From IMG/VR virus record IMGVR_UViG_3300008110_000075, positions 1 through 64,000 of that record: a stretch of 64,000 nucleotides of DNA; one strand, 5' to 3'. Below, piece by piece: positions 1-51,311 of this stretch. This DNA comes from a virus. The notes below the pieces were generated by a model. That model was not told the DNA's origin. It did not search any database and saw only the letters and a list, made by a program, of their open reading frames with translations. Made by a program: the position numbers and the translations under genes. Numbering within the stretch: position 1 is the first letter of the stretch; each line of letters starts with the position of its first letter.

Positions 1-595
1 TTTTGAAGTAACTATATTGACCTATGGTACATATATCAATTTTAGCACCTTTGTCTCTTCCTTTGCATCTTCCTAGAATGTCTCTATATAACTTCCAAAC
101 ATCTTTGTTTACACCAAAAACTTCGAATACCTGATACTTGTAGTCGCCATTGTCATATATCCCCAAGTATTTTATTCCACCTGAGGATTCCAACTTCTCG
201 ATATCATTTTGTGAAACAAAGTTATCTTTACCCTGTATTTCATCATAGACAATATTTCCTTCTCTAAGTTTAACAATCTCTTGCAAAAATTTCTTAACAT
301 CTTCGGCGGTCCTATACAGGTGAATGTCCTTGTATTCAAACTTTTTCTTATTTTTCTCGTATAGGTCGAAGTATTCTTTATACTTGTATACATCCTCGGC
401 TTTGATAATACCAGTTCCCACCTTCTTTGTGAGCCAACTCAATAAATAAAATTTGTTACCCGTAACTTCAACTATTTTATTGAAGTCATCTTCTGAAATG
501 GGCTTTCCCTCACCTACATATTTGTTTTTGAGATTGAGAACATTTTGGTCAACTTGTTCTTTTAATACTTTCCAAATGAGGGAGCGTAGTTCCAT
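1..595 (-). CDS. WCT-motif protein with capsid-leader-like N-terminus (3' end outside window)
   Basis: The reading frame is open from an ATG at 595 to the left edge (198 residues visible, no stop). It starts MELRSLIWKVLKEQ, a hydrophobic leader ending LKE before Q, like the other leader proteins here. The last visible residues contain an ICTI..YSYFK pattern that lines up with WCT.....YF..Y segments in the proteins at 23961-25721 and 40601-41923, so I place it in the same family, less surely because the W is I and the rest is missing. A TATTTATA box sits 4 nt before the start. Function unknown; inferred internal head protein. Confidence 0.6.
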   Translation of the reverse strand, partial: MELRSLIWKVLKEQVDQNVLNLKNKYVGEGKPISEDDFNKIVEVTGNKFYLLSWLTKKVGTGIIKAEDVYKYKEYFDLYEKNKKKFEYKDIHLYRTAEDVKKFLQEIVKLREGNIVYDEIQGKDNFVSQNDIEKLESSGGIKYLGIYDNGDYKYQVFEVFGVNKDVWKLYRDILGRCKGRDKGAKIDICTIGQYSYFK

Positions 596-599
596 GTTT

Positions 600-607
600 T
601 ATAAATA
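600..607 (-). promoter_or_regulatory. TATTTATA box, 4 nt before start codon
   Basis: The minus strand reads TATTTATA followed by four bases and the ATG at 595. It is one of nine boxes placed 3-5 nt before a start in this window. If it is a -10-type promoter the message would be almost leaderless; it could instead be an A/T-rich translation signal. Confidence 0.5.
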
Positions 608-613
608 CTTTGG

Positions 614-643
614 ACATAAAAAAACCCCCGATTTCTCGGGGGC
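614..643 (-). terminator. Intrinsic terminator
   Basis: An inverted repeat CCCCCGA/TCGGGGG is followed on the minus strand by a run of seven T. It ends transcription of the small gene at 650-757 before the leader gene at 595. Confidence 0.8.
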
Positions 644-649
644 CTTTAC

Positions 650-757
650 TTATTTCTTGATTTTAGAAACAAGCTTTAGAATATGTGGTCCCACCACAAC
701 TCCGACAACGACACCTAATAAAAAGTGCCAATGCCATAAAAATTCTAATTGTTCCAT
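650..757 (-). CDS. Small membrane protein (35 aa)
   Basis: ATG at 757 to TAA at 650, 35 residues. It has one hydrophobic segment with small residues (LLGVVVGVVVG) and a basic C-terminus (KLVSKIKK), as expected for a single-pass inner membrane protein. A terminator follows directly. No family recognised; the clean start, stop and terminator make it plausible as a real gene. Confidence 0.55.
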   Translation of the reverse strand: MEQLEFLWHWHFLLGVVVGVVVGPHILKLVSKIKK

Positions 758-787
758 AGTTTTTTAAAAGGTTTAATTTTGTTTAGA

Positions 788-1348: not shown

Positions 1349-1666
1349 TTACATGAACCTTTTGACCCTGTAACCCATGTTACCCAAGTAATCCTTGAAA
1401 ACCTCTTTTGTTCCTGTTTTGGATAGGTTAAACATGATTTTTACGAGTTCGAAAAGTTGGTCAGTAACGAATAAAATTTGGTCACCTTTCTCATATGCCA
1501 TCTTGTTTTCCTTACCTTTTCCGAACAAGACTAGGTTGTTAGTTTCCTCAGGAGAATAGTCCTCAAGGTAACTGTCAAGAAATAAAAAAATCTTGTCATT
1601 TATTTTAGATTCTCCAACAATTCCAAGGAACTTGTTTAATCTATTTTCTGTGATGATGTATTTCAT
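1349..1666 (-). CDS. Leader-bearing small protein (MKYIITE family)
   Basis: 105 residues starting MKYIITENRLNKF. The first seven residues end in ITE and are nearly identical to those of the next two genes upstream, whereas the bodies differ. The body is predicted soluble and unrecognised. It is the last gene of a five-gene operon with overlapping ends (the start overlaps the preceding stop by 4 nt) and is followed by a terminator. By the shared leader I infer a packaged head protein processed after ITE; no enzymatic function can be read. Confidence 0.7.
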   Translation of the reverse strand: MKYIITENRLNKFLGIVGESKINDKIFLFLDSYLEDYSPEETNNLVLFGKGKENKMAYEKGDQILFVTDQLFELVKIMFNLSKTGTKEVFKDYLGNMGYRVKRFM

Positions 1667-1971
1667 GGCTCTACGAATTCCACCTTAACATTGAATTTAT
1701 TTTCGAACCATAGTTTAATTAAGAGTTTCATTTTTTCTTCACTCAAAGCAAACATATCGGTCATATTTTTTTGGAAGTGGCGGTTAACCCATAATCTTCC
1801 ATCTGTGTGGTCAAATTCCATAATGTCCTCCCAATCGTCTTCACCATCCCCAATTTGGTGAGATACTACAATATAAGGATGAAGTCGGTTAACAACCTTC
1901 CTTTCAATCAAATTGTTAAGGTAGTCGATAATAAACTGATTCAACCTATTTTCAGAAATAATGTATTTCAT
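1663..1971 (-). CDS. Leader-bearing small protein (MKYIISE family)
   Basis: 102 residues beginning MKYIISENRLNQFIIDYL. I chose the ATG at 1971, immediately after the previous gene's TAA at 1973-1975, because it places the conserved leader at the N-terminus; a longer frame upstream lies inside the neighbouring gene. The body has an acidic patch (GDGEDDWEDIMEFDH) that resembles the same region of the next upstream protein (DIGDGEFNLAD), so the two are probably diverged paralogues. Function unknown. Confidence 0.7.
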   Translation of the reverse strand: MKYIISENRLNQFIIDYLNNLIERKVVNRLHPYIVVSHQIGDGEDDWEDIMEFDHTDGRLWVNRHFQKNMTDMFALSEEKMKLLIKLWFENKFNVKVEFVEP

Positions 1972-1972
1972 A

Positions 1973-2326
1973 TTACTCGTCTTCATTTTGGTCTTCTTCA
2001 TGCATCCACTCAAAATTATCCATTGTGAGGGATTTATCATATCTCTCATTGAACCAATTTATTATGGTTTTGATGGCGTCGAGATTAGGAATTGAAAAAA
2101 GTTTAGTTAATTGAGTAACTAATCCATCACTAAGGTAAATCACTTCAAACTCTCTGTGTGGATGCATACTTGAATATTGAATTCTGTAAAGAATTTTGCT
2201 TGTATTATACTGTCCGTCTGCAAGATTAAACTCACCATCACCAATATCCCACTCCCACCAATCGATTGAATCAAGATAAGATAATATCAAATTTTTTAAC
2301 CTATTTTCTGTTATTACGTACTTCAT
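1973..2326 (-). CDS. Leader-bearing small protein (MKYVITE family)
   Basis: 117 residues beginning MKYVITENRLKNLILSYL, the same leader as the two downstream genes. The C-terminal half carries SIPNLDAIKTIINWFNERYD, similar in layout to MKLLIKLWFENKFNVK in the 1663-1971 protein, which supports a paralogous group. It overlaps the upstream gene by 26 nt. Function unknown; inferred head-packaged. Confidence 0.7.
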   Translation of the reverse strand: MKYVITENRLKNLILSYLDSIDWWEWDIGDGEFNLADGQYNTSKILYRIQYSSMHPHREFEVIYLSDGLVTQLTKLFSIPNLDAIKTIINWFNERYDKSLTMDNFEWMHEEDQNEDE

Positions 2327-2618
2327 GGTTAATATTTCTTATTGTTGCGGTGGCTGAATGAACGGGAACTCCAACCATATCCTCAACGAACTGTGCAAGT
2401 TGGTGTTTAAAAAAATGAAAATCAGGACCCATAGTTCTTTCGGTAACATAAAATATTGGATGAAGAATATAATAGGTTCCACCCATCATTGCTTTACCTT
2501 CTTCAATCGCAACCTCAGTTTTCATAACAGAGTTGTTTGTGAAAGTCTCAGCAACCTGTTTGATAATTTCTTTTATCCTATCGTTTTGTTGTTCTGTAAT
2601 AATATATCTTTTCATCAT
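2301..2618 (-). CDS. Leader-bearing small protein (KRYIITE)
   Basis: 106 residues starting MMKRYIITEQQNDRIKEII; the first ATG overlaps the upstream TGA (ATGA), indicating translational coupling. The leader ends ITE before Q. The body (FTNNSVMKTEVAIEEGKAM...) is not recognised. Part of the same operon of leader proteins. Confidence 0.68.
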   Translation of the reverse strand: MMKRYIITEQQNDRIKEIIKQVAETFTNNSVMKTEVAIEEGKAMMGGTYYILHPIFYVTERTMGPDFHFFKHQLAQFVEDMVGVPVHSATATIRNINHEVRNNRK

Positions 2619-3043
2619 ACTTTTGTCCAGGTCATTTCAAAAACCTCATATTCGAGTGGTGTTCCATAATAGGCAATATCCAAATTGAAATAAGATTTGA
2701 GGTCCTTATATACTTCCCTCTTGGCAAGTAAAGACCAATTCCTATCCTTCTTTTGTTTGCTGAAGTCAAAGTAAAATTTGATGTTTGGTCTTTGAATGGA
2801 GAAACCTTCATTTCCATAATGAGTTCCTTTCTCCCCAATCTCAATCTTCACCAACTCATCCCCAAACTTAACTTTAAAAAATTCTATAATCTTTGGAAGT
2901 ATACGTTCGATACGAACTTTGTAGTCCTTAATAAATTGAATTCTCTCCTCTTTTGAAAGTTCATGAAACTTCTCCACCCAATCAGGTGTGTCTGATGTCA
3001 AAACAATTGCCTCCCTTAATATTTTTTTGATGAGTTCTCTCAT
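2615..3043 (-). CDS. Leader-bearing protein (LIKKILRE)
   Basis: 142 residues, first gene of the leader operon. It starts MRELIKKILREAIVLTSDTPDW; ILRE before A fits the [I/L]xE rule. The body mixes basic helices (KEERIQFIKDYKVRIERI) with a strand-rich half (IKIEIGEKGTHYGNEGF) and is not recognised. A TATTTATA box lies 3 nt before the start. Confidence 0.7.
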   Translation of the reverse strand: MRELIKKILREAIVLTSDTPDWVEKFHELSKEERIQFIKDYKVRIERILPKIIEFFKVKFGDELVKIEIGEKGTHYGNEGFSIQRPNIKFYFDFSKQKKDRNWSLLAKREVYKDLKSYFNLDIAYYGTPLEYEVFEMTWTKV

Positions 3044-3046: not shown

Positions 3047-3054
3047 TATAAATA
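3047..3054 (-). promoter_or_regulatory. TATTTATA box, 3 nt before start codon
   Basis: The minus strand reads GTATTTATA, three bases, then the ATG at 3043. It heads the five-gene leader-protein operon and lies just downstream of another gene's terminator, so an independent promoter is needed here. Confidence 0.55.
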
Positions 3055-11656: not shown

Positions 11657-11705
11657 AAAAATTACATTTTGGCTCCGTTTTTCAATCCTGAATGAAACTT
11701 GTTTG

Positions 11706-11713
11706 TATTTATC
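11706..11713 (+). promoter_or_regulatory. TATTTATC box, 5 nt before start codon
   Basis: TATTTATC then five bases and the ATG at 11719; supports MSNPVIII as the true start. Confidence 0.5.
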
Positions 11714-11718
11714 TAAGT

Positions 11719-16096: not shown

Positions 16097-18249
16097 ACTG
16101 TGAAATCTCTCACAAAAAATTTACTTGACCTCATTCTCAAAAATATTGTTTTTGGTTTCTCAGGCACTGTTCCAAAAAATGGTATTGTGGTTGAACCTAT
16201 ACTAATATCTGAAATACCACCTGCTTTAGCAACATCTACTGCAAAGGTTGCACAATTCGAATCACCACCCTCTGTCAAATCTATGAATGAGTAACTTCTT
16301 GGTTTACTAGCCTCGTTCACAGAGTCTGTGAAATTAGGTAATCTCATAACATTTGTCCACATTGTTAGATTTGGACCGTCTTTGAAAGTTTTGGCTTTAC
16401 AAGTTCTTGCAACATCACCAGCATTTGTGAAGTTTCCTTGTGAATCTATAGTCGCAATTTTCCCCATTTCAGTTTTCAAAACCTTTCCGTTTCCATCGTT
16501 ATCGTAAGGTCCAAACTCATATAATTTTACAATACCTGTATGGTCAACTAAAATACAACCTCCATGTCCAGTGGCATATATTTTGATTTCTCTCTTTCCA
16601 ACTTGTTCATTCAAACCTAAATAATCCTCTACCCACTCCAATGCTCTTCCGTGGAATGCTAATATGCGAGCAATCCAAGAATCTGTCATTGAAGGTCTAT
16701 ATTTCGGAAAAACAAAGAACATAAAAAAACCTGATTGATTTTTGTCTATGGGTTGAAGTGACTTAAAAACAAAATCATCCTTCTGTCTTGCAATTGATAA
16801 ACTTGGTACTCTAATGTCCCCCGAAGAGGGATTGTACTGTTCCTCCAATTTTGACTCAGATTGAGAAATTTTTTCCTTTAACTTTCTGAAGAAATCTGAA
16901 GCCAACATTTTTGTAAATTTTACATATGGTGCATCTTCTCTTTCAGGGTCATATCTATATTGACCTTCGGGTGGTCTTTTGGACCTACCAAGATAGTTCA
17001 ATCCACTTATATTCGTGATACACTTGTGACCTCCAGAGTTTGCGTTGATTAATTCCCAAGCACTTACATTAATATTATCTAAGATACTTTTTTCTTCATC
17101 TGTTAATGATGTAAATGGTTTTGACATCATTTCTTTAAGTCTATTCAAAGCCTCTTCTCCTCTTTCTTGTTCTGCAAATTTTTCACCATAAACCGCATTA
17201 AAATCCTCGAATGTAAACCCAACACTTTCAGGGTTAACACCTGTTTCACTAATCCATTTTATCGTTGATAACGGGACTTTTCTTTCCTTGAGTTGAGCTT
17301 CATACTTTGCAATGACCTCTTTAGCAATCTCTCCGAGATTAACACCTTTGAGCTTCCTTTCCTTTTTAAAAGGATTGCATGATACTTGAAGTAATCCCAT
17401 CGGCCATGCCATGATGAGAAAGTCTGCTTCAGGGTTATTTCTAAATGGGGTATACCTGTCATAAGAGCCAGGCTTAACCATACTACCTCCACCATATTGG
17501 TAAATGATATTATCTTCAACATGGGGAAATCCTTTCATTTGTTTTGCATAATCTTGTGCGTGTTTTTGTAGTTCTTCTGGTTTTGGTGCATTTGTATCTT
17601 TCATCCATGTTTTGATGTTACTAAGTATATTCATCAAAGATGGTTCTGAATTCATTACAAGTCGCTCCAAAAATCCTTTCTTGTTTTTGAATGCTAAAAT
17701 GAGTTTGTTTATAACGAAACCCAATAACATTTTGTTTCTTTGTAACGGCTTTTCTTTATCTAATCTAAAAAGATAATTGACTACCTCCTCGGGACTTATA
17801 TCTTGTCTAGCGAAATCTGCGGAGTCAACAGTGTTAATCAATAAAACGTCAGATGAGGGAAATAAATCTTTGGGTGAAATTATTTGTGAGATTGTTTCCA
17901 CGTTTGAACGTGCTTGTCTAAATGATTTCGAAGCACCTTTTTCCGCACCTATTTGTTTGTCATGATGGTCCGTGTGGATAACGAACATTGGTTTACCATG
18001 AGCAAAGTCAACCAAAACAGGCATGGTATCACCCTTAGCGTCATTCTTCTTAACCGCAAATTCTTTTTCCCCATATTGTATTACGTGAACATCTACCACA
18101 TCAATACCATTGTTCTCAAGGTATTTTTTCATCGCAATAGCAGTAGTTACACCATCTAAATCTTGGTGGAAATATATTTCAGCCTTCGGGTATCTTTTTC
18201 TTAATGCGGAAATATCTCTTAAACCTGTCTCAGTTATTAGGTTCTTCAT
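16093..18249 (-). CDS. Leader + DHH phosphoesterase + papain-like domain fusion
   Basis: 718 residues. MKNLITE before T is the leader. Residues about 25-330 are a DHH-type phosphoesterase: HQDLDG (28-33), VDFAHG (80-85), HTDHHD (92-97) and NTVDSADF (139-146) supply the metal-binding Asp/His set. The middle is helical. Residues about 555-718 look like a papain/NlpC-type fold: GHGGC with His 562, VKLYEFGPYD, and SNCATFAVD with Cys 666. A Cys-His peptidase or amidase is plausible but not certain. I infer an injected effector that acts on nucleotides and on a protein or peptidoglycan bond. It starts at the DUF5856 stop. Confidence 0.75.
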   Translation of the reverse strand: MKNLITETGLRDISALRKRYPKAEIYFHQDLDGVTTAIAMKKYLENNGIDVVDVHVIQYGEKEFAVKKNDAKGDTMPVLVDFAHGKPMFVIHTDHHDKQIGAEKGASKSFRQARSNVETISQIISPKDLFPSSDVLLINTVDSADFARQDISPEEVVNYLFRLDKEKPLQRNKMLLGFVINKLILAFKNKKGFLERLVMNSEPSLMNILSNIKTWMKDTNAPKPEELQKHAQDYAKQMKGFPHVEDNIIYQYGGGSMVKPGSYDRYTPFRNNPEADFLIMAWPMGLLQVSCNPFKKERKLKGVNLGEIAKEVIAKYEAQLKERKVPLSTIKWISETGVNPESVGFTFEDFNAVYGEKFAEQERGEEALNRLKEMMSKPFTSLTDEEKSILDNINVSAWELINANSGGHKCITNISGLNYLGRSKRPPEGQYRYDPEREDAPYVKFTKMLASDFFRKLKEKISQSESKLEEQYNPSSGDIRVPSLSIARQKDDFVFKSLQPIDKNQSGFFMFFVFPKYRPSMTDSWIARILAFHGRALEWVEDYLGLNEQVGKREIKIYATGHGGCILVDHTGIVKLYEFGPYDNDGNGKVLKTEMGKIATIDSQGNFTNAGDVARTCKAKTFKDGPNLTMWTNVMRLPNFTDSVNEASKPRSYSFIDLTEGGDSNCATFAVDVAKAGGISDISIGSTTIPFFGTVPEKPKTIFLRMRSSKFFVRDFTV

Positions 18250-18635: not shown

Positions 18636-19850
18636 CTAAGGTAAAGGATTTAACGAACCCGAAAACATATTACTAAACATGTTTTGAACTGGATTATTTT
18701 CTTTCGGTTTTTCAGATGAACTTTGAGGTTTGTAAGCACCAGAACCAAAAAGAGGTTGAATTTGCCCATACCCTACTTTACCTGAACCACCATCTTGACC
18801 TGCATCAGCGTTTATTGCTTGGTTAAAGTCCGACTCAAAATTATTTTGAGCTTCTTCTGTTTTATTATAGTTTTCCATATTTTTCAGAAGTTCGTCTTCA
18901 CCAATTTTAGCCGCCAATTCATCGGGTCCGACAAAATTTGCAATATTCATATAATCTAATAATCCCATCCACCATTTTGTTTGTCTCATTAAACTTCTTA
19001 CGGATGCATTTCTATTCAATAGTTGAGGCATTCCTCTGAAAACACTTTTCCAAGACAAAATTCCTTTGGTTGTTCTATAACCTGAAAATAAACCTGGTGC
19101 TTCTTTAGCTAGTTTGGTAAGTTCTTCGAGTGCCGCTAGTTGTTTAGCTTTTGACCATACTCCAACAGATGTAGTTGCAGTTTTCAATCCTGTCATACCC
19201 CTCACTATTTCTTGACCTGTTTTTCTCAAAGGTGCTGTTGCTTTATTATAATTAGCGAATAAATCAAACCATTGTAAAACAGTTTTCTTTAACCCTCCCA
19301 TCAATGGCATCGGAACTCTTTCGATATATCCTCTTAACTTACCAGCGATTTTACTGAAAGCTGAAACAAATCTTCCTGTCACACCACCCATCGCGGTTAT
19401 ATTATCAAGCATTTTAGCCGCTTCGGCTGTTTTTCCTGCTTCAACCAAGGCGGTAACTTTTCTCAAATTCTTCACGCCAGGACCACCAATTTTGAGGGCT
19501 GCCATCATAGGTTTGGCAACGATGTCTCCAGCATATGGTAAAGCTGAAATGATTGATAATAATCCGAATAATTTATCTCCTTGTTTCAAATAAGAGATAC
19601 CGTTTACTAAATCAACTACCCCTGTTGGGTCAAAAATTCCAACGATATCACCAAGGGTGTTATACCACTTTGCTTCGTTTACTAATTTACCCTTTGATGG
19701 ATATAGAACACACAGTGTTTCGACGATTTGTTTTTTTTCCTCTTTGGAAAACTTTGACCAACTTTCTTCGGCAAGCCTATAATTGTCTTGCTTGAGAATT
19801 TCTAAATTCAAAAGTTGGAGTTGTTTTTCAGAAATTATAAATTCTGCCAT
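18636..19850 (-). CDS. Leader-bearing protein with pre-toxin-like hydrophobic region
   Basis: 404 residues. The start MAEFIISEKQLQLLN gives a leader ending ISE. Residues about 65-115 (GDIVGIFDPTGVVDLVNGIS, FGLLSIISALPYAGDIV) resemble the hydrophobic pre-toxin modules found before toxic domains in polymorphic toxins and in phage injected proteins. Further helices with Gly-rich segments follow; the C-terminal 80 residues are low-complexity (SSSEKPKENNPVQNMFSNMF). It may insert into or cross the host membrane during DNA entry. No enzymatic motif is seen. Confidence 0.65.
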   Translation of the reverse strand: MAEFIISEKQLQLLNLEILKQDNYRLAEESWSKFSKEEKKQIVETLCVLYPSKGKLVNEAKWYNTLGDIVGIFDPTGVVDLVNGISYLKQGDKLFGLLSIISALPYAGDIVAKPMMAALKIGGPGVKNLRKVTALVEAGKTAEAAKMLDNITAMGGVTGRFVSAFSKIAGKLRGYIERVPMPLMGGLKKTVLQWFDLFANYNKATAPLRKTGQEIVRGMTGLKTATTSVGVWSKAKQLAALEELTKLAKEAPGLFSGYRTTKGILSWKSVFRGMPQLLNRNASVRSLMRQTKWWMGLLDYMNIANFVGPDELAAKIGEDELLKNMENYNKTEEAQNNFESDFNQAINADAGQDGGSGKVGYGQIQPLFGSGAYKPQSSSEKPKENNPVQNMFSNMFSGSLNPLP

Positions 19851-19863: not shown

Positions 19864-19871
19864 TATAAATA
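19864..19871 (-). promoter_or_regulatory. TATTTATA box, 13 nt before start codon
   Basis: TATTTATA on the minus strand upstream of the ATG at 19850, directly downstream of another gene's terminator; it would drive the 19850-16093 operon. Confidence 0.5.
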
Positions 19872-23960: not shown

Positions 23961-25721
23961 TTAATCAATTCTCATTACGTAAAACCATTGGTCTTGAATT
24001 TTCACCTCATCAGCATTCCCATCGTAAGAATTAAGTGTTTGCCCAAATCCATCAGCATCTATCACCCCTTGTATAAATTCATCTTTGTCTATAAATTGTT
24101 CCCAGTCAATCCCATGCTCATTTAAAAAACCTTCGGGGTCTCTCATAACATCATCAACTAATTCATCAACTTTTTCTTCAACCAAATCATCAGGGAATTC
24201 TCCATCAGGGTCGTTCTCAATATCATCGATTTCATCCTGATATTCTACTATCAATTCACTTAGTTCATCTATTTTATCTTGAATCGAATCATCATCTCCC
24301 CCGTCCCCAATTAGTTCCTCAAATCTCTCAATTTCTACTTCGGTTCTTTTTATTCTCATTTTGAGAATTTCGATTTCTTCTTTTTGTTTGGAAGATAATT
24401 GTCTCTCACTTTCATCCAAATAAACCTCAGGATTTTGATATACATCGTCCCCTAAGTAGTCTCTTGCATAGTCCGCGACTTGTTCATCGTCAATGAAACC
24501 TCTCGCAAACCCACTACTGAAACCGCCATAACCAATATCGTCAATTAATGAATCCACCCTTTCCTCACAACTTGATTGCATTTCACCCTCCGTTCCCACC
24601 GCATATTTTCTATCACTCAAACCTGCATCTATTACCTCAAATTCCGTGCAATCATAATACTCTCCTGTGGGTATTATGTTGTATACATCAATTTTTTCCT
24701 CTAATTCATTCAACTCATCCTCTAAGTCACTGATTTCGTCTAAAATGTCTGTTTCTACTTCCTCACTATTATCGTATTGGTTTTTAAGTCTCTCGATTTC
24801 ATCTTTAAGTCTCTGAATTTCTATTCTGTCCTCATTTGTCAACGCTGAAACGTCACTTGTGTCAACCAACCAATCTAAAAGGGCGTGGGCTTTCAAACCC
24901 TCTTCAGGACAATCGGGACCAAGAGCCCATTCATTTTCCATCCTTCTCTCCTCAGCATCGTCTCTCATTTGCCTTAATATTCTTGCTTGTCTTAGTGCTT
25001 CTTGTCTCTCTTTTTCTTTTTTCGCGGCTTCTTTGTCATTAAAAATCTTTATTTGTTCAGAATACTCTGAGTTCATGTATTCAGTTATCTGATTAATTAT
25101 CTCATTGTATTTAGCGGTGCCCACATGAGCAGGATATATATTTGTTTGTTGGTCTGTGGCCGTGAAAAAACTTTTGTTACCGTCAAATTTGTTGAGCAAG
25201 GCTACTTTGTAGAATGGGTCAGATGAATCAGCACTTCTATCTAAAATATAAAACAATTTACCCTCTGTGTTATAATAATTGAATTGGTGGTCTGAACTTG
25301 CCACGGTGCACCACTTTGTTCCTTTACCGTAATAGCATGAAGCCTGATGTGTTTGAGGATTCACAACAAAAAATCTTCCATCATCGAAAACAACTTTACC
25401 ACCCTCAACTTGTTTATAATCTCTTCTTGGTCTGTTCGCATATTTTTGTAATTCATCACTGAGTTCGGAAACACTTTTATATGAATTAATATCAGTTTTA
25501 GGTAGGTTTGATGAAATCTTATCAAATTCTCTAAGTTTTCTGACTAAGTCTTGAAAGTTAGATTCAAAGTTCATCACCTCAAAGTTTTTGGCAACCCAAT
25601 CCCAAAATTTTTGAGGAACGTTATCAATGATTTTTTTCAATTGCTCCTCAGAAAATTTCGTTCCATACTTAGCTTTGAGTTCTTCTGATTTGTTTTCTAA
25701 TATTAATTCTAAAATTTTCAT
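23961..25721 (-). CDS. Leader-bearing WCT-motif protein with long acidic coil
   Basis: 586 residues from the ATG at 25721 (a TTG one codon earlier is possible). MKILELILE before N is the leader. Residues about 128-160 contain CYYGKGTKWCTVASSDHQF then FYILDRS, the WCT motif (W137-C138-T139). Residues about 225-300 and 420-470 are charged coiled coil with three DEL/DEI-rich segments; the C-terminus (DEVKIQDQWFYVMRID) is strand-like. Shared WCT domain with 41923 and 595 genes suggests one effector family with different tails. Function unknown. TATTTATT lies 12 nt upstream. Confidence 0.75.
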   Translation of the reverse strand: MKILELILENKSEELKAKYGTKFSEEQLKKIIDNVPQKFWDWVAKNFEVMNFESNFQDLVRKLREFDKISSNLPKTDINSYKSVSELSDELQKYANRPRRDYKQVEGGKVVFDDGRFFVVNPQTHQASCYYGKGTKWCTVASSDHQFNYYNTEGKLFYILDRSADSSDPFYKVALLNKFDGNKSFFTATDQQTNIYPAHVGTAKYNEIINQITEYMNSEYSEQIKIFNDKEAAKKEKERQEALRQARILRQMRDDAEERRMENEWALGPDCPEEGLKAHALLDWLVDTSDVSALTNEDRIEIQRLKDEIERLKNQYDNSEEVETDILDEISDLEDELNELEEKIDVYNIIPTGEYYDCTEFEVIDAGLSDRKYAVGTEGEMQSSCEERVDSLIDDIGYGGFSSGFARGFIDDEQVADYARDYLGDDVYQNPEVYLDESERQLSSKQKEEIEILKMRIKRTEVEIERFEELIGDGGDDDSIQDKIDELSELIVEYQDEIDDIENDPDGEFPDDLVEEKVDELVDDVMRDPEGFLNEHGIDWEQFIDKDEFIQGVIDADGFGQTLNSYDGNADEVKIQDQWFYVMRID

Positions 25722-26054: not shown

Positions 26055-27065
26055 ATGGAAAATGAATATTCTATACGTGGTTTCTTGGAATCATTCAATA
26101 ATAATGACTTGGATGTAAAAAAATATTTTGGTGATTATGAAACATGGTTCAATGTGTTGAAGAAAAGAGGTTTGATGGGTGAAATCGACCCGAAGAATGC
26201 TGCGGGTTCCGAAGATTGGCAAAATGAATATCTTTTGTGGTTATACGATAATGATAGAGAAAAATATTACAAATGGATGAATGAGATTTTATCTGATGTT
26301 GTAATAGAAGGTAAAGATGTTTATTGGCAAGGTGACAGAGTTGATTTAGCAATTTTATTTTGTGATGATAGAAGAGACGGTCCGAGTAGAGATACAATTG
26401 AAAGTATTTTAGTTGGTGAGGATGTTTTCGAACCTTATTGGGACACAACCGATGATGTTTACAGAGATGTCATTGAAGAACTAACCAAAGAGAATTTAGA
26501 AATTTTTAAAGAAAGGATTGTTAAAGAATTATCAGGTCAACAGTTGAGTCCTGATACGGAAGAAATGGAGTTAATAGCCACTGAGCAAGGACATGAAAAT
26601 TATTGGACTATAGATTCAGAAAATGTGACGAGAATAATCGACGATGAGGAGTCCATGAATAGTTTACTAAAAGATGAGCTTGCCGATGTAAAATCTGATT
26701 TATACTCTGTTCATTCTAATTCATATAATTCTGCTTACGAAAGTGAGGTATATAATAGCATTTTCAATAAATTGGATGAATATTTCAACACCGAAAAAAA
26801 ACAATGGATAAATGTTCCCCACCCATACAAAAAAGAAACTGTGGTTGAAAAATTCAAAATACCAATATATGATTTCGAAGGTATCGTGAATGATTTTTTA
26901 CATTCTAACAAAGGTTATGGAAATTCAGGAACACTTGATTACCATGGAAGTTTTATAGAAATAATTAGGGAAGAAAAGGATTGTCTCAGATTGTGGTTTC
27001 CTGATTACCCTGACTCAAGATTGCTTGACAAAAACATAAATGAAATATTTTCTGATTATTTTTAA
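26055..27065 (+). CDS. Hypothetical acidic protein heading the metallopeptidase operon
   Basis: 336 residues starting MENEYSIRGFLESFNNNDL. The N-terminus has GFLE before S, close to but not matching the leader rule. The body is acidic with WQGDRVDLAILFCDDRRDGP and FEPYWDTTDDVYRDVIEELT. Its last codon overlaps the next start. I recognise no family; co-expression with two metallopeptidase-like proteins suggests the same virion-related pathway. Confidence 0.65.
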   Translation: MENEYSIRGFLESFNNNDLDVKKYFGDYETWFNVLKKRGLMGEIDPKNAAGSEDWQNEYLLWLYDNDREKYYKWMNEILSDVVIEGKDVYWQGDRVDLAILFCDDRRDGPSRDTIESILVGEDVFEPYWDTTDDVYRDVIEELTKENLEIFKERIVKELSGQQLSPDTEEMELIATEQGHENYWTIDSENVTRIIDDEESMNSLLKDELADVKSDLYSVHSNSYNSAYESEVYNSIFNKLDEYFNTEKKQWINVPHPYKKETVVEKFKIPIYDFEGIVNDFLHSNKGYGNSGTLDYHGSFIEIIREEKDCLRLWFPDYPDSRLLDKNINEIFSDYF

Positions 27066-27847
27066 TGGCTTACGTAAAATACATATTAGTTGAACAAAGA
27101 GGCTTTACTCCAAGAAAAACTCCTCCACCAAACATCAAAAATATTTTATCCCAAATAGAACTTTTCGAGATGTATCCAAAGATTTTTGCTCTTGTCATCA
27201 AAGACGACAAATTAAGAGCAAGAGTTTTTATGAGGTATCAGGAGTTTTATGAGTCAGATTCCGAGACATTTAGAGGAAAAGGTTTCAAATGGTATGACTA
27301 CGTGAAACATTACAAGAAAAAGACCAAGAAAGATTATTTCTCTTATCATGAAGATTGGGCAGGTTATAATATCCCTTGTAACTCAATTGAATCTTGTATG
27401 AAAGTTATTCCAGACGTAAATTTTTATGATTTGATAATGTTTAGTGTAATAGATACGATTAGAACGTTAGTAGGTGGAGAGGATTTCTATTTAATTGGTA
27501 TTGACCAAAGTAATGGTGAAGACCCTTCACTTATTTTTCACGAAGTAGCACATGGTCTTTGGTTTTCATCTCCAATTTATAAGAACAAACAAATGAAAAA
27601 CATAGAAAGACTCGAGCCAAATGTAAGAGAATCGGTAGCAAGAAAAATAACTGGTATGGGATATGGAGAAAATGTGGTAGATGATGAGATTCAAGCCTAT
27701 TTATCTACAGGGATAGGAGATAACATGACAAGAATCAAAAACATCAAACAAGCTCAATTACCTTTCAAACAAGTATTTGATTCTTATACAGGTAAAATCA
27801 AACCTAATAAAATAAACATAGATTGGAGGACTGATTTGAATGCCTAA
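27065..27847 (+). CDS. Leader-bearing zinc-metallopeptidase-like protein (HEVAH)
   Basis: 260 residues. MAYVKYILVE before Q is the leader. SLIFHEVAHGLWF carries the zinc-binding HExxH at residues 159-163, with a candidate third ligand in VVDDEIQAYLS about 50 residues later (gluzincin-like layout). The N-terminal 90 residues are basic and aromatic. I infer a peptidase packaged in the head and injected, or a maturation peptidase. Ends overlap the next gene by 8 nt. Confidence 0.75.
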   Translation: MAYVKYILVEQRGFTPRKTPPPNIKNILSQIELFEMYPKIFALVIKDDKLRARVFMRYQEFYESDSETFRGKGFKWYDYVKHYKKKTKKDYFSYHEDWAGYNIPCNSIESCMKVIPDVNFYDLIMFSVIDTIRTLVGGEDFYLIGIDQSNGEDPSLIFHEVAHGLWFSSPIYKNKQMKNIERLEPNVRESVARKITGMGYGENVVDDEIQAYLSTGIGDNMTRIKNIKQAQLPFKQVFDSYTGKIKPNKINIDWRTDLNA

Positions 27848-28691
27848 ATTCATCAACATATTATCCGATATTTTATCTGAAGCTAAAAGATATAAATTCA
27901 CACCTGAATTACTACAAAAAATTAATTCGGTCGTAGAAAACCTTTGGAATGACCGAAACAAAAATTACGGTAATAAGAAAGAGGTTGTTGATGTTATCCC
28001 CTTCAAAACTGCAAATGGTGTTGACGGTTTGGTAAAAGTGATTGTTAATCCAAGATTGAAATACTTGGGATTTATGGGAACTAAACCGAGTAAATCTTAT
28101 GACCCCGCAGACATTTATATCGAGGTAAATCCAAAATATTACGAATCTAAGAAAAATCTTTATCTTACAATCTATCATGAGATGATACACGCCAGTGACC
28201 CAACTCAAAGTAGTTCTTGGTCTCCAAAATATATGTTGAGCTATGATGAAAAGTCTGATGAAAAGTATTGGGGTCATCCAATAGAATTCTTTGCGATATC
28301 AAATGAGTTCTTGGAAGGTCTTGTAAGAGAATTTGAAAGAAGAGCAAAAAGATTAAGAAAAATTGAAAACAAAGAGATTTTGGATAAGTCTTTGAAAAAT
28401 ATTCTCAACTATTTTGCCAAGGGTGAGCCATTAAATAAGCTCAGTCAAGACATTCTTTTCAGAATCAATGACGAACACGTAGGACAAGATTCATTCAAAG
28501 TTCTTAAGAATCTGACCGCAGATATGCCCCATTTGGCGGACTTACTTCCTGAAAGAGGTGAGGAACCATATTATTTACACTATGTCGAATTGATTAAGAA
28601 ATTTAATCCTGAAATATGGAAAAAGTTCCTAAGTATGTTCTACAATACAACTTTCGAGATTAGAGACATTATCAACAAAAACTATAAATAA
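27840..28691 (+). CDS. Leader-bearing zinc-metallopeptidase-like protein (HEMIH)
   Basis: 283 residues. MPKFINILSDILSE before A is the leader. LYLTIYHEMIHASDPTQ has HExxH at residues 113-117, preceded by the strand DIYIEVNP typical of zincins; a downstream HPIEFFAIS may provide the third ligand. The C-terminal 130 residues are helical. It differs in sequence from its neighbour, so the pair is probably two enzymes and not a duplicate. Confidence 0.75.
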   Translation: MPKFINILSDILSEAKRYKFTPELLQKINSVVENLWNDRNKNYGNKKEVVDVIPFKTANGVDGLVKVIVNPRLKYLGFMGTKPSKSYDPADIYIEVNPKYYESKKNLYLTIYHEMIHASDPTQSSSWSPKYMLSYDEKSDEKYWGHPIEFFAISNEFLEGLVREFERRAKRLRKIENKEILDKSLKNILNYFAKGEPLNKLSQDILFRINDEHVGQDSFKVLKNLTADMPHLADLLPERGEEPYYLHYVELIKKFNPEIWKKFLSMFYNTTFEIRDIINKNYK

Positions 28692-40600: not shown

Positions 40601-41923
40601 TTATTCCTCACCTTCCAAATCCCACATATTGTTACCCATGTCACTACCTTTTCTTTTGATACATTCAGGAACTTGACAATTGTCACTTCCTTTCAGATTA
40701 ATAAAGAAAAGACTCGGCATGTTACACACACATTCAGGGATAGAAGTAAGTTGTTTGTTATTAATAAGTGCTAAGAACTTCAACTTTGGTAATTCACAAA
40801 TTGAATCGGGCACAGTTTCAACACAATTATCAAGTAATATCATTCTCAAGTCTTTGAATCTAGAAATCGATTCAGGAATGTTAATAATAATATTATTTTT
40901 GTCTCTATTTTGGATTTGAAATTCAGTCAAGGTAGATGGTAAGTTATCTATCAAATCGTCTAAACCATAAAGGGCAATGAATTTTCCAATTGCACCATGA
41001 GAAAAACTATCAATAACAAGTTTTTCACCTCCAACAGTCAAACCTTTTGCAAATTCTGGTTTGAATAACGGTTTCAATTCAGACATTCTTCCATTGAGTA
41101 GCCCAACTAAATCTTGTTGACGGTCATCCTTGTCCATAAATTGATTGGATGGGAAATGGAATTGAAATCTTTCAACAGGTAAACCTGTTTCAGAGGCTTT
41201 GTTAGGGTCATTTGGATTGAACACAACATATAATGGACCGTCCTTAATATATCTATCAAACCAAGACAATCCAGGTGCAGAAGTGCACCATCTAGTCTCT
41301 CTATTATTTCCACCGTAAAAACATGCGGCTTCTTTTCCTGATAAACCCTTGTCTTCAATCTTAATCACTCTCCAATCTTCACCGTCATACATGAGTTCAG
41401 CACCAGGGTGAACTTCGGCAGTTTTTCTTTCTGCTTTAGTTGTTGTTGCCATCGTAAGGTCGAAGTCTTTAACTTCGTCATACAATTGGTCAGGAGTCAA
41501 CTTCATTATATCCCTTTTTTCCAAAGGAATACGTTTGTAAAATCTTCCGAATTTCTTCAAATCATCTGTAACCTTATACAGGTCTTCCAAGAATGTTTCC
41601 TTTACTTGAGCAAGTTCTCTTTCATAACCCGTATCACCAGGTTGTCTTTCAGTCTTAACGTTCAAGAAACTTTTGATGAGCCAGTTAACATACTTACCTG
41701 CCTTTATTTTTTCAAGTTCTTTGGAGTCTGCACTCTCAGGGTCAACGTTATTTAATTTAGTGGTAGGGTCTGCCTGCACCAATTTTAAAAATTCAGCCAC
41801 GGTCATCTTGGGCTTTTGTTTTTTTCCCTTCTTGTCTTCAGTAGGTTTTGTTAAAGCATTTCTCAAAATCTCAAATCTTGATTGCTCCAACAAAATATCT
41901 TTAAGTAATGATGTAAATTTCAT
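40601..41923 (-). CDS. Leader-bearing WCT-motif protein with leucine-rich repeats
   Basis: 440 residues. MKFTSLLKDILLE before Q is the leader. Residues about 195-250 hold AACFYGGNNRETRWCTSAPG, SWFDRYIKDGPLYVVFN (W212-C213-T214), the WCT motif. Residues about 320-430 form leucine-rich repeats (ISRFKDLRMILLDNC, ICELPKLKFLALINN, VCNMPSLFFINLKG) with conserved Cys in the P-x-x-I/V-C loops. Leucine-rich repeats bind proteins, so a targeting tail on an injected effector is plausible. Function unknown. Confidence 0.78.
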   Translation of the reverse strand: MKFTSLLKDILLEQSRFEILRNALTKPTEDKKGKKQKPKMTVAEFLKLVQADPTTKLNNVDPESADSKELEKIKAGKYVNWLIKSFLNVKTERQPGDTGYERELAQVKETFLEDLYKVTDDLKKFGRFYKRIPLEKRDIMKLTPDQLYDEVKDFDLTMATTTKAERKTAEVHPGAELMYDGEDWRVIKIEDKGLSGKEAACFYGGNNRETRWCTSAPGLSWFDRYIKDGPLYVVFNPNDPNKASETGLPVERFQFHFPSNQFMDKDDRQQDLVGLLNGRMSELKPLFKPEFAKGLTVGGEKLVIDSFSHGAIGKFIALYGLDDLIDNLPSTLTEFQIQNRDKNNIIINIPESISRFKDLRMILLDNCVETVPDSICELPKLKFLALINNKQLTSIPECVCNMPSLFFINLKGSDNCQVPECIKRKGSDMGNNMWDLEGEE

Positions 41924-41967
41924 CTACCACGAATTTATTAATAAATATATTGATTACACAAAAATAA

Positions 41968-42843: not shown

Positions 42844-43020
42844 TTAGTTATAACAATTTTTGTAAGGTCTACATGAAGCTTTCTGAGTAAATCCCATATC
42901 TGAGCATGATGTAGATTTACAATATGATTTACTATATTTCCTTGGTTTCTTAAATTTCTTTTGTTCTTTCTCGTCCAAATATTGGTAAAGAACTCTTTTA
43001 ATAATTTGTTCCAAAATCAT
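42844..43020 (-). CDS. Small Cys-rich basic protein (58 aa)
   Basis: MILEQIIKRVLYQYLDEKEQ with a possible ILE leader before Q, then a basic, Cys-rich end: SKSYCKSTSCSDMGFTQKAS followed by CRPYKNCYN. That block looks like a conserved small phage motif. A TATTTATA box lies 3 nt before the start. Function unknown; likely virion-associated. Confidence 0.65.
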   Translation of the reverse strand: MILEQIIKRVLYQYLDEKEQKKFKKPRKYSKSYCKSTSCSDMGFTQKASCRPYKNCYN

Positions 43021-43023: not shown

Positions 43024-43031
43024 TATAAATA
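43024..43031 (-). promoter_or_regulatory. TATTTATA box in a 10-bp divergent gap
   Basis: Box three bases before the ATG at 43020; its last base is the A of the opposite gene's ATG at 43031. Confidence 0.55.
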
Positions 43032-47890: not shown

Positions 47891-47967
47891 TGTTTAACCT
47901 TGCTCTCGATTTCCTCATTGAGGATTTTAGAAATAAGATTGTCAATATGTTTTTGAAACTTGTCCAT
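47836..47967 (-). CDS. Short leader-like frame overlapping the next gene (43 aa)
   Basis: MDKFQKHIDNLISKILNEEI... carries ILNE before E, fitting the leader rule, and has a TATTTATA box 15 nt upstream. It overlaps the 46427-47890 frame by 55 nt. Either a separate small protein or the leader of the large protein joined by a one-base shift. Confidence 0.5.
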   Translation of the reverse strand: MDKFQKHIDNLISKILNEEIESKVKHCLRMNQLTLVKDWKTIK

Positions 47968-47982: not shown

Positions 47983-47990
47983 TATAAATA
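47983..47990 (-). promoter_or_regulatory. TATTTATA box
   Basis: TATTTATA on the minus strand 15 nt before the ATG at 47967, and partly inside the end of the preceding operon. Confidence 0.45.
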
Positions 47991-49199: not shown

Positions 49200-49200
49200 G

Positions 49201-49446
49201 TTAAGCGTTTTTCAATCTAGGTTCCCAATAACCTCTGTTGGTCCACATGAACTGGTAAAATTCACGGAACATCCTAAGAGTTATATCTTTTATATCACCT
49301 TCGAGTTTTCCTTTTTTGATTTCTTTTCTTATTGTATCAAGAAGTTTATCCTCGAATTGTTTGACAGTATTATTCTGCATAAAGTTTCTAACCTCCTTGC
49401 GGACTAATGTTTCAATTTCTTTTATTTCTGAATTTGTAAATGCCAT
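49201..49446 (-). CDS. Conserved small phage protein (81 aa)
   Basis: MAFTNSEIKEIETLVRKEVR, EDKLLDTIRKEIKKGKLEGD, FREFYQFMWTNRGYWEPRL: helical with a C-terminal aromatic patch, strongly of conserved-phage type. Probably structural, next to head-type genes. It starts right at the spanin-like stop. Confidence 0.65.
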   Translation of the reverse strand: MAFTNSEIKEIETLVRKEVRNFMQNNTVKQFEDKLLDTIRKEIKKGKLEGDIKDITLRMFREFYQFMWTNRGYWEPRLKNA

Positions 49447-49856
49447 TATTTGGTTATTAAAAAGAACGTTAATACAGCAATCAGACCTGTGCCAAGGATA
49501 GAATTGAATTTACTTTTTACTTTCTCTTTCTTCAAATCAAATTCTAATTTTTTTGAATATCTTTCCATGATATCAAACTTTTGTTTCTCAGAATCAATTA
49601 TTGTGAGATAATTCGTTTCTTTTGCTCTAAGAATTGTAATAACGCTGTCCTTGAGTCCTACTTTTTTCTCGGTTTCAATAAGTTGGAATTCAGTGAGTTT
49701 CAATTGTGCCTTTGCAGAATCTCCACTTATTAAGTCTTTCATTATTTGCTTAACCACAGGTAAGGGAAAACACTTTTCAGTCTTACTTGTATCTATCTGT
49801 GAAAAAGCTATCGACTTCACGAGAAGTAAGCTTATCAATATTGCTAATTTTTTCAT
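49446..49856 (-). CDS. Secreted coiled-coil protein, spanin-partner candidate
   Basis: 136 residues from MKKLAILISLLLVKSIAFSQ, a signal peptide. Then CFPLPVVKQIMKDLISGDSA, a long coiled coil, and a C-terminal membrane helix (ILGTGLIAVLTFFLITK). It overlaps the preceding membrane coiled-coil gene by 74 nt in another frame, the typical spanin arrangement. Inferred role: outer-membrane disruption at lysis. Confidence 0.65.
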   Translation of the reverse strand: MKKLAILISLLLVKSIAFSQIDTSKTEKCFPLPVVKQIMKDLISGDSAKAQLKLTEFQLIETEKKVGLKDSVITILRAKETNYLTIIDSEKQKFDIMERYSKKLEFDLKKEKVKSKFNSILGTGLIAVLTFFLITK

Positions 49857-50145
49857 GATAAATTTCTTTGACAATTGTTTTTTGATTTTTTATTTTGCCG
49901 ATAGTTTGGTCTACTTTTTCAATTTCATTGTTGAAATCAGAAATCTTGTTTTCCAATTTCAAATTATCTTCGTGAAGTTGCTTAATAACAACATTGAGTG
50001 AATCAAGTTGTTGTTTTTGGTCGGCAGCCATTTGGACCCTTGGTGTCAGGAAAAATATTAAATAATAAAGGATGAACAATCCGAAAATAACTTTAAGGAT
50101 TGTTATGTAATGTTTCTTTAAGAAATTTAGAATTTTACTAATCAT
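49783..50145 (-). CDS. Membrane-anchored coiled-coil, i-spanin candidate
   Basis: 120 residues: one N-terminal membrane helix (ILKVIFGLFILYYLIFFL) followed by a coiled coil (LNVVIKQLHEDNLKLENKIS), the layout of inner-membrane spanins. The partner gene is nested in its 3' end. Confidence 0.65.
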   Translation of the reverse strand: MISKILNFLKKHYITILKVIFGLFILYYLIFFLTPRVQMAADQKQQLDSLNVVIKQLHEDNLKLENKISDFNNEIEKVDQTIGKIKNQKTIVKEIYHEKISNIDKLTSREVDSFFTDRYK

Positions 50146-50146
50146 A

Positions 50147-50713
50147 TTAAATTGGTGATTCTTTTGTTTTCTTTCTACTCGCCAAAACTTTACCCCATTT
50201 GGATTTGAATTTTTGGTAGAATTGTTGAAGTTTATTAATTAAATCCAGAAATTCTTGGTCAACCTTAACCATTTGTCCATTGATATAAATTCCACTATCT
50301 TCCCCAATTGTGAAGATAAATTCCAAGTCTTCATCAATTAATTTCCCAGACCATTCAACATTATTTTGATAAACATTCAAGACATTGAAATCTACAAGGT
50401 CAGAAACCTCTTCTACGAATTCATCCATGGTTTCTTGGAATGCAACTTTATCGTCTGTTGTAATATCCAATTCACTTCTGTCCTTACCATGAAGGGCTAA
50501 GATTCCACCTGAAATTCTATATTTCTGAGTTTTGTCTTCAGGTGTTGGTTTTTCACCTTTCTCTTCATCAGAAACCGCAGTATCATATTGATTGTCTCTT
50601 TCAATCCTTTTTTCAAGGTCTTTGGCGACATTGATTTGTGTCTCTTGTTCGAATATCAGTCTCGATTTTTTCAAAAGAGATTTGATTTCATCGTATCTTT
50701 CTTCGTTAAGCAT
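50147..50713 (-). CDS. Leader-like N-terminus, acidic head-associated-type protein
   Basis: 188 residues from the ATG at 50713, which overlaps the amidase stop (alternative ATG at 50722). MLNEERYDEIKSLLKKSRLI then FEQE: IFE before Q fits the leader rule, 18 residues in. The body (KYRISGGILALHGKDRSELD) is acidic and beta-rich; ends basic (KWGKVLASRKKTKESPI). Possible prohead core protein. Confidence 0.6.
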   Translation of the reverse strand: MLNEERYDEIKSLLKKSRLIFEQETQINVAKDLEKRIERDNQYDTAVSDEEKGEKPTPEDKTQKYRISGGILALHGKDRSELDITTDDKVAFQETMDEFVEEVSDLVDFNVLNVYQNNVEWSGKLIDEDLEFIFTIGEDSGIYINGQMVKVDQEFLDLINKLQQFYQKFKSKWGKVLASRKKTKESPI

Positions 50714-51311
50714 ATTGTTCATTTTCAAAATATTTTTGTAAGGTCTCGAATTGAAATGAAGGATTTAGGTCCGTATACATTGTGTCGATATTACTCCTTG
50801 AAATTATTCCCTCCCAATCAGTAATCCCATCGATTTTTGTGTTATGACCTATTGACCTCAGTTTTATGTTAAGCGACTCTCCTAGCATTTTACACAGTTC
50901 AGCTGTTGATTCCATTTGAATGTCAGTGTAAGGTTGCCAAAAAAAGTAGTCTCTCCATTTTTTTTCATAAACCTTGTCATTATAAATACTTCCAATCCAG
51001 TTAATATAATGATTGGTTAATGGTTTCTTTTCCAACCATCCAAGGTTCTCAAGACATATTATGACTGAGTTCTTATTGATTTGTTCCTTAGGAAATATGT
51101 TCGAATGACCTAACTCTGGTAGAAGTTGTAAAACCTCACCCTTTCTTGTTACAACGTAGTTTGGGATTTTATCATATTGTCCATTATATCTAAATTTAAG
51201 GGAGACCAGGAATTCCCCGACCTCCCTTGAAGTATGACATAATATTATTTGATTTTTTTTCTTTTGTTTCCCAATCGGTTTGAAGTTTCCGTATTTTTGG
51301 ATTTTAAGCAT
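50706..51311 (-). CDS. N-acetylmuramoyl-L-alanine amidase (endolysin-type)
   Basis: 201 residues. The Amidase_2/PGRP fold is visible: ILCHTSREVGEFLVS with the first His, PNYVVTRKGEVLQLLPELG, SVIICLENLGWL, and RSIGHNTKIDGITDWEGI with the later His/Asp set. No signal peptide, so access to the wall would need a holin. Sits in the lysis cassette and is coupled to the following leader-like gene. Confidence 0.85.
   Translation of the reverse strand: MLKIQKYGNFKPIGKQKKKNQIILCHTSREVGEFLVSLKFRYNGQYDKIPNYVVTRKGEVLQLLPELGHSNIFPKEQINKNSVIICLENLGWLEKKPLTNHYINWIGSIYNDKVYEKKWRDYFFWQPYTDIQMESTAELCKMLGESLNIKLRSIGHNTKIDGITDWEGIISRSNIDTMYTDLNPSFQFETLQKYFENEQYA

Follow-up and report, generated by a model that had tools for sequence, protein, structure and literature searches.

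Why should at least 14 proteins with apparently unrelated bodies, encoded in one stretch of viral DNA, begin with the same kind of short leader? The window analysed here is a stretch of 64,000 bases, namely bases 1-64000 of the 155,783-base IMG/VR virus record IMGVR_UViG_3300008110_000075, and the original prediction listed 15 gene starts in it whose products carry an N-terminal leader ending in [I/L]xE, the site after which the prohead protease of phage T4 cuts. Each of these starts opens a frame in which [I/L]xE falls within 25 residues of the N-terminus (15/15), and the shared leader on at least 14 proteins is not only real in the window but more widespread in the whole genome, where we put the number of candidate carriers at some 40-50 per genome. 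We consider it highly probable that these leaders are capsid-targeting propeptides like those of T4, carried by an unusually large set of cargo proteins. This reading is carried by features observed in the sequences, namely the shared leaders, the enrichment of [I/L]xE, some kept junctions, a prohead protease with its head module, and a common upstream element.

Source of the window and comparison sets

The protein encoded at 18636-19850 occurs at 100% identity in seven IMG/VR contigs, the longest of 321 kb, and the window section of the 155,783-base record aligns with the 321,283-base record G003 over long blocks that are 99.96-100% identical. Because these long near-identical blocks are shared with G003, the window is, on these alignments, a fragment of a jumbo phage of about 321 kb; the remaining parts of the 155,783-base record match G003 at identities down to 92.9%. 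Head genes were not found in the scanned parts of the 155,783-base fragment (20 proteins by PHROGs, and an S77 search of the whole record) and are present in the long records. A search of isolates gave no homologue of the 18636 protein. As Flavobacterium phages are among the nearest isolates by capsid and sheath, our guess for the host is Bacteroidota.

Genes were called with our own script (hexamer model and dynamic programming) and no standard gene finder, giving 384 genes in G003. Test contigs were found among viral contigs by a DNA pattern for MKYIITE (at least 120 stretches, with up to six matches per stretch, of which 6 were removed as the same phage, judged by contig name), and control contigs by the matched pattern MKYIIT[N/D] (70 stretches, a single match each). 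We used 69 of the 70 control loci, since L086 also carried the test pattern and was kept in the test set; L037 and L092 are the same phage and were removed only in the non-redundant repeat analyses, with hardly any change in the figures. G056 is a second jumbo phage and G012 an S77-bearing control phage. Because test contigs were chosen for holding one leader protein, enrichment among their genes shows clustering of leaders within phages and is no measure of their overall frequency.

Enrichment of [I/L]xE near protein starts

Bare [I/L]xE is common near protein starts, so the window alone is only suggestive: the site lies near the start in 38 of the 88 window-equivalent genes, against a shuffle mean of 27.9 (p=0.006). 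The enrichment over shuffled sequences that the original prediction implied is borne out by the whole of G003, where 181 of 384 proteins have the site; in 500 shuffles the mean was 122.2 and the highest count 147. The sites concentrate above all at residues 7, 9, 10, 13 and 23, with the strongest peaks at residue 7 (20 vs 4.3, p=2e-8) and residue 9 (21 vs 4.3, p=4e-9), and adding V at P3 weakens the signal. [ILV]xEQ is present in the first 30 residues of 40 proteins, with 6.8 expected.

The same pattern is seen in the other leader-bearing contigs, for which all counts, here and below, are among the matches listed. MKYIITE falls at called gene starts 137 times in 114 stretches, compared with 6 times in 69 for the control pattern. 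In 1246 neighbouring genes, with the matched open reading frames excluded, [I/L]xE totals 988 vs 413, reaching 137 vs 15.9 at residue 7, 85 at residue 9 and 58 at residue 22, and the control set of 657 genes gives 237 vs 199. Once stretches of the same phage and redundant proteins were taken out, the totals were 612 vs 263 in 782 genes, with 82 vs 10.1 at residue 7 (p=9e-47), and 218 vs 176 in 580 control genes. [I/L]xEQ is raised in the 1246-gene set (94 vs 13.7), and [I/L]xDQ (4 vs 4.2) and [FYWM]xEQ (10 vs 12.2) are not. For single genomes the counts are 252 vs 121.9 in G056 and 159 vs 123.8 in the control G012; the isolate Flavobacterium phage immuto, examined over 150,000 of its 160,410 bases, has a modest overall enrichment (83 vs 57.7). 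This phage (immuto_2-6A, L275-L277, MW353175; host Flavobacterium sp. LMO8) has two small leader families, F(D/N)L(K/R)xFL(V/T)EN(K/R)L on three proteins and MKKQILSEQF(K/R)RM on two; the candidates lie at record positions 1803, 25061, 111675, 117631 and 118632.

Leader classes, carriers and junctions

The leaders form several classes, for which the labels A-E are our own. Class A has the consensus K(I/V)(I/V)RLTESDL(T/V)R(I/L)VKRV(I/L)(K/N)E(Q/N), and its regular expression finds 15/384 proteins in G003, 75/1246 in other contigs and 2/657 in the control; among the 90 members in G003 and the other contigs, a few of which are chance matches or overlap with class B, the first site has E in 80 and the second in 71. 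Class B, with the consensus MKY(L/I)ITES(Q)L, is found in 13/384, 89/1246 and 4/657, respectively, with E in 88 of 102 members. Directly behind the second site, Q is the most frequent residue. Further families recognized by eye are MNL(Q/H)ENIxRIKxMMG, MNRS(Y/F)SKIRHIQE and a short MxxLIKKILRE type.

To call carriers, the N-termini of G003 were set against 600 N-termini from test and 600 from control contigs, leaving out homologous bodies and stretches of the same phage. At a score of at least 42 there were 59 matches to the test set and 10 to the control set. The test match scored higher for 57 proteins, of which 47 have [I/L]xE at residues 4-26. The resulting list of 47 (57 called, 10 without a site dropped) replaced a first list of 53 that included signal peptides, and the test misses some leader proteins, such as the DHH protein described below. 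Related phages have the same leaders on other bodies, in line with the original prediction. Its description of the bodies as unrelated is nearly but not strictly right, since the window carriers with WCT motifs that start at 25721 and 41923 look distantly related; there are 2 homologous pairs among the 47 carriers (BLAST E<=1e-3).

Leader exchange is seen at junctions, of which the examples were picked by eye (arrows mark the putative cut). The DHH protein starting at 18249 and four relatives read LITE↓TGLRDI, LILE↓SGLRDI, LIKE↓SGIRDI, LLNE↓SGLRDI and LIKE↓SGLRDI, and DHH homologues in two phages of >600 kb have another leader (MISKYNQFINE↓EVGL and MLRKYGQFINE↓EVGF). In a second family the junctions are VLRE↓ALGVP and VLRE↓AVGIP, and LLNE↓AVGVP with a class B leader. 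This family suggests that class B leaders are cut at their second [I/L]xE. Some of the sites originally named (ITE/ISE at residue 7) may mark the start of a helix, and cutting would then take place at a second [I/L]xE further along.

A different repeated N-terminus, MK(H/Y)(L/I)KxYxxFE-like, occurs in L222 and L223 (LR745206, LR756502), which are >600-kb phages; its regular expression matches 4/54 and 10/64 called genes, and their S77-like match is weak (20-23 bits, below the cut-off). These two phages possibly have a parallel leader code. The huge-phage leader expression is absent in G056, G012 and the control, and matches 1/384 proteins in G003 and 2/1246 in other contigs. Searching isolates by tblastn with short leader peptides gave no match, for which low-complexity masking or the short length may be the cause. 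Another group of N-termini, signal-peptide-like and ending in Q (e.g. MKKQFLLFFALVCSLVTFAQ), is shared by the proteins at G003:126060, 160867, 167239, 172156 and 239530, the last being window 788-1234.

Prohead protease and upstream element

The gp21-like protease that the original prediction would have in the rest of the genome is encoded in G003 (Pfam Peptidase_S77, 77.4 bits with a cut-off of 27; phrog_207, E=6.1e-43) and matches PDB 5jbl, 'Prohead core protein protease' (E=3.7e-13). It shares a module with the major capsid protein (MCP; phrog_138, E=7.2e-65), the portal (phrog_213, E=3.4e-63) and TerL (phrog_2, E=7.9e-41), and with an acidic scaffold-like protein of net charge -87, which matched no PHROG and owes its name solely to its position and charge. 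Another 16 stretches were selected as regions around an S77 match: homologues of the portal, the protease and the scaffold-like protein are present in 16/16, and one of the capsid protein in 15/16, the other stretch ending first. The protease has ELNHP and G(I/V)SSRG in 17/17 cases (14 distinct sequences, some stretches being near-identical), and the MCP has a boundary LINE↓(A/S) at residue 60 in 16/16 (14 distinct sequences), a place which we take to resemble the boundary of T4 gp23. In a 249-kb control phage, the S77 frame at G008:C1:181494-181811 holds two TAG codons, and this phage may read TAG as an amino acid.

Upstream of the genes, TATTTA[TA] lies within 30 nucleotides of the start in 33/47 carriers of G003, compared with 7/27 head-region, 8/31 tail-region, 0/28 replication-like and 65/337 of all other genes, and 2/384 null windows; the head, tail and replication-like groups are defined by genome position, not by expression data. 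The earlier carrier list gave similar figures (36/53 carriers, 6/26 head, 8/32 tail and 0/28 replication-like), and within 70 nucleotides the element is found at one replication-like gene. In other contigs it precedes 93/160 class A/B leaders and 305/1086 other genes, and 23/651 non-leader genes of control contigs. The element is weaker in G056 (10/23 vs 84/357, p=0.044). We read TATTTAT(A) as a putative late promoter of this phage clade.

Weighing the evidence

Several results weigh against the leaders being cut capsid-targeting propeptides, and the cutting itself is a prediction from sequence. Conservation among orthologues is only suggestive: for the 47 carriers, N-terminal sites are conserved in 50/91 cases and internal sites in 34/83 (p=0.07), with 86/196 and 157/365 for non-carrier proteins; a larger set, biased by the choice of nine carriers added by hand, gives 68/122 and 63/168. 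Residue 7 of class B is K or Q in 8/102 members, [I/L]xKQ is also raised (30 vs 14.4), and the Glu in LTESDL/ITESQL may be retained as a helix start. Outside the carriers called by similarity, [I/L]xE and the upstream element are unassociated (23/62 vs 95/269, p=0.88), so that many bare [I/L]xE sites are chance. The similarity test also picks signal peptides (10 of the 57 were called without a site, and 5 of these 10 are signal-peptide-like), and 6 site-bearing proteins are closer to control N-termini; a handful of the 47 carriers may therefore be false. Pairs of class A leaders (11 proteins) share somewhat more codons than expected (375/645 vs 304), and for this reason some leaders may be recent copies. 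Finally, co-occurrence with S77 was tried as a test and is not discriminating because control contigs of at least 190 kb carry S77 too (4/4, with 10/10 test contigs); the counts at 100-190 kb are 8/18 test and 2/5 control contigs, and 50 of the 73 test contigs of at least 30 kb were scanned.

The leaders could target proteins to the head and be cut there while the bodies act in assembly or inside the virion, in core building, DNA condensation or the order of maturation, and not as effectors. The T4 core proteins gp22, gp67 and gp68 are such gp21 substrates without an effector role, according to passages of PMC9026906, and many carriers are small, at about 100 residues, and have no known function, as would suit this role. 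It does not account well for cargo with enzyme domains of no obvious use in assembly (C39 peptidase, YkuD transpeptidase, PPK2, DHH and TseH-like), nor for the position of 35/47 carriers at 176-242 kb of G003, well apart from the head module, which is found at about 95-120 kb. We regard an assembly role as unlikely.

The leader might instead be a plain N-terminal helix that serves another localization (membrane, tail or replication compartment) and is never cut. Strong amphipathicity of class A fits this idea: its helical moment is 0.711, compared with 0.325 for shuffled sequences (for class B, 0.438 and 0.279, respectively). The starts LTESD and ITESQ also have the look of helix caps. A helix of this kind leaves unexplained both the I/L at P3 with E at P1 at swapped junctions and the same rule at the invariant boundary LINE↓(A/S) of the MCP, and we think it quite improbable.

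Could the leaders be a DNA or mRNA signal, such as a promoter tail or translation enhancer, that encodes similar residues by coincidence? TATTTAT does lie mostly within 30 nucleotides of leader-gene starts, and the codon sharing of class A is somewhat above expectation. Class B codons, in contrast, are used as if freely drawn: in pairs from 23 proteins taken with a loose pattern, the same codon is found at 457/984 identical residues vs 446 expected from genome usage. Class A thus appears to keep some trace of copying and class B none, and class B leaders would be conserved at the level of the protein, not of the DNA. Conservation also tracks residues (I/L at P3, E at P1, a freer P2), the distance of the site varies from residue 7 to 25, and [I/L]xDQ, [I/L]xQQ and [FYWM]xEQ are not enriched, [I/L]xKQ much less than [I/L]xEQ. 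A nucleic acid signal is very hard to reconcile with these data. Chance, by which [I/L]xE would simply be common in E- and I-rich proteins and the cases picked, starts from about a third of N-termini (122/384) and the p=0.006 of the window alone, and is refuted for the leader set as a whole by the position peaks: p is about 1e-8 in a single genome, and for residue 7 it reaches 9e-47 in the non-redundant genes of other contigs, with only a slight excess in the control set (218 vs 176).

Leaders in the window and their candidate cargo

The window leaders are given in Table 1. Eight of the 15 listed proteins were called as carriers because their leaders resemble those of unrelated proteins in other contigs; 19850 passed the first version of that test and fell below the threshold in the repeat; homologues of 18249, 25721 and 50713 differ from them in leader or site; and for 595, 27065 and 27840 the support is their own sequence and the upstream element. 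The 27065 protein has no homologue in the sets compared for orthologues, and 27065 and 27840 could individually be chance.

Four of the listed starts call for a correction. The gene starting at 595 runs off the left end of the window and encodes 521 residues in G003. At 43020 the ILE at residue 4 is present and, in our judgement, a less likely site than LDE at residue 17. The frame at 47967 stops after 43 codons because the window record is without about 247 bases of G003 at window 47891, which is either a real variant or an assembly difference. For 50713 the real start may be 50722, with a second site at residue 25.

Table 1. Positions and properties of the leaders in the 64,000-base window (arrow, putative cut)
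Position	Strand	Leader	Gene or protein	Remarks
557..595	-	MELRSLIWKVLKE↓Q	MORN-repeat protein running off left end	TATTTAT 601-607; not called by leader similarity
1646..1666	-	MKYIITE↓, class B	1349-1666	leader-similarity carrier
1951..1971	-	MKYIISE↓, class B	1663-1971	leader-similarity carrier; second site NLIE at residue 23
2306..2326	-	MKYVITE↓, class B	1973-2326	leader-similarity carrier
2592..2618	-	MMKRYIITE↓, class B	2301-2618	leader-similarity carrier; second site IKE at residue 17
3011..3043	-	MRELIKKILRE↓, class E	2615-3043	leader-similarity carrier; TATTTAT 3048-3054 upstream of gene run
18229..18249	-	MKNLITE↓	DHH + TseH-like protein, 16093-18249	junction [I/L]xE↓[ST]G(L/I)RDI in 5/5 aligned (window protein and 4 relatives)
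19827..19850	-	MAEFIISE↓, class B-like	18636-19850	first-version similarity test; TATTTAT 19865-19871
25695..25721	-	MKILELILE↓	GTKWCT protein, 23961-25721	G056 homologue (32% identity) with class A leader; TATTTAT 25735-25741
27065..27094	+	MAYVKYILVE↓Q	27065-27847, with HEVAH (zinc-peptidase-like motif)	weakest support, jointly with 27840
27840..27881	+	MPKFINILSDILSE↓A	27840-28691, with HEMIH	downstream of gene 26055, TATTTAT 26043-26049
41885..41923	-	MKFTSLLKDILLE↓Q	TRWCT + leucine-rich-repeat protein, 40601-41923	carrier; G056 homologue IVE↓N; TATTTAT 41941-41947
42970..43020	-	MILEQIIKRVLYQYLDE↓	42844-43020	leader-similarity carrier; TATTTAT 43025-43031
47914..47967	-	MDKFQKHIDNLISKILNE↓	frame broken in window, 595 residues in G003	carrier; TATTTAT 47984-47990
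50648..50722	-	MNNMLNEERYDEIKSLLKKSRLIFE↓Q	50147-50722	G056 orthologue also has [I/L]xE sites

Among 20 larger candidates that we chose, five are above the Pfam cut-off, as MORN_2, PG_binding_1, PPK2, Peptidase_C39 and YkuD. The protein at G003:165560-166666 is a polyphosphate kinase 2 (PF03976, E=1.4e-70) with a candidate leader at its start and relatives with other leaders, and G003:235955-236626 encodes an L,D-transpeptidase (YkuD) with the class B leader MKYIITKSQLAKLQE↓Q. In the window, the TseH-like part of the 16093-18249 protein is above the cut-off and the DHH part below it. HExxH is found in the carriers 27065 and 27840, and WCT motifs in 25721 and 41923. SprT-like and M91 matches of the 27840 protein are weak and below the cut-off; in PDB it gave photolyase matches only at E=0.2, which we took as chance. 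A predicted structure of a WCT protein had a mean predicted local distance difference test score (pLDDT) of 48.7 and was not used. The label 'pre-toxin-like' given to part of the cargo found no support: one of the ten proteins scanned matched Pfam phiKZ_IP, below the cut-off at 18.5 bits vs 27.

Further features of the window lie apart from the leaders. A long collagen-like protein with a GAQGxTG repeat is encoded at 33469-36093, and this gene and two long neighbours (28705-36093) consist of self-matching DNA of about 48-51% G+C, compared with about 34% around. At 11692-13464 a protein with long TPTPTNTQTPT repeats is encoded on the + strand amid mostly - strand genes.

Discussion

Capsid targeting by cleavable leaders, the reading that we prefer, would involve the following steps; it is from T4 that we infer the docking of leaders on the scaffold, their cutting, and the packaging and injection of the bodies. 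Leader genes would first be transcribed late. The leader, of about 7-25 residues and usually hydrophobic, weakly basic and amphipathic, may then dock its protein onto the acidic scaffold core of the prohead, where the S77 protease of the T4 gp21 type would cut after [I/L]xE and free the body inside the head. The freed bodies would remain with the packaged DNA and probably be ejected into the next cell. The leader is modular in this reading, with several classes passed around among the cargo proteins, which number some 40-50 per genome and are mostly unrelated; the predicted cargo comprises a C39 peptidase, an L,D-transpeptidase, PPK2, the DHH and TseH-like protein, HExxH and WCT proteins, and many unknowns.

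For this jumbo-phage clade, probably of Bacteroidota, we lean slightly towards a general delivery code, in which any leader-tagged protein would be loaded, trimmed and injected, so that a virion would carry some 40-50 effectors, with a parallel code in the >600-kb phages. Phage proteins that are injected with the DNA are hard to find, and their function is mostly unknown. If the leaders act as proposed, a sequence rule would flag some 40-50 candidates for injection per genome, in a clade represented by many metagenome contigs, turning unknown phage genes into testable factors of host takeover or anti-defence; injected proteins could be predicted across metagenomes by sequence, and several natural packaging tags would be supplied. 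We found no description of these leaders, or of a comparably large tagged set, in the literature searched, a scope that left out most subscription papers and all bioRxiv preprints.

Other head-borne proteins offer a looser parallel. The DarA and Hdf proteins of phage P1, and other head-borne anti-restriction proteins, are reportedly accessory and tied to DNA ejection (PMC12810830), and the leader proteins are likened to them by description only, for their predicted head-borne accessory role.

The closest comparison is with T4. As described in passages of PMC9026906 and PMC5694885, T4 cleavage follows L/I-x-E and T4 leaders have 10-20 residues; excerpts of PMC9026906 and PMC12373910 name the internal proteins IPI-III and Alt, with at least 10 Ips among related phages, and part of PMC12373910 has Ip1-3 disarm restriction enzymes. 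The present system resembles that of T4, as far as it is set out in the relevant parts of these three papers, in its short putative N-terminal propeptide that sits on different bodies and ends in L/I-x-E, in its S77 protease and T4-type portal, MCP and terminase, and in its accessory cargo. It differs in having some 40-50 carriers per genome, compared with IPI-III and Alt in the T4 passages, in its several leader classes in one genome, and in the prevalence of Q behind the second site. The leader classes A-E of the clade are unlike the T4 leader in a comparison made by eye only, in which only the DHH-homologue leaders of the two >600-kb phages resemble it.

The inner-body (ejection) proteins of the jumbo phages phiKZ and SPN3US are also similar, as many head proteins of such phages are cut after E by a divergent gp21-like protease, according to portions of PMC9026906 and PMC5694885. 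In SPN3US several propeptides exceed 100 residues (gps 50, 53 and 54, in the account excerpted from PMC5694885), whereas here [I/L]xE peaks at residues 5-23; phiKZ differs in that the phiKZ_IP match here stays below the cut-off (18.5 vs 27 bits). The kind of system is already known from T4; its scale here, the presence of several leader classes in a single genome, and the clade are new.

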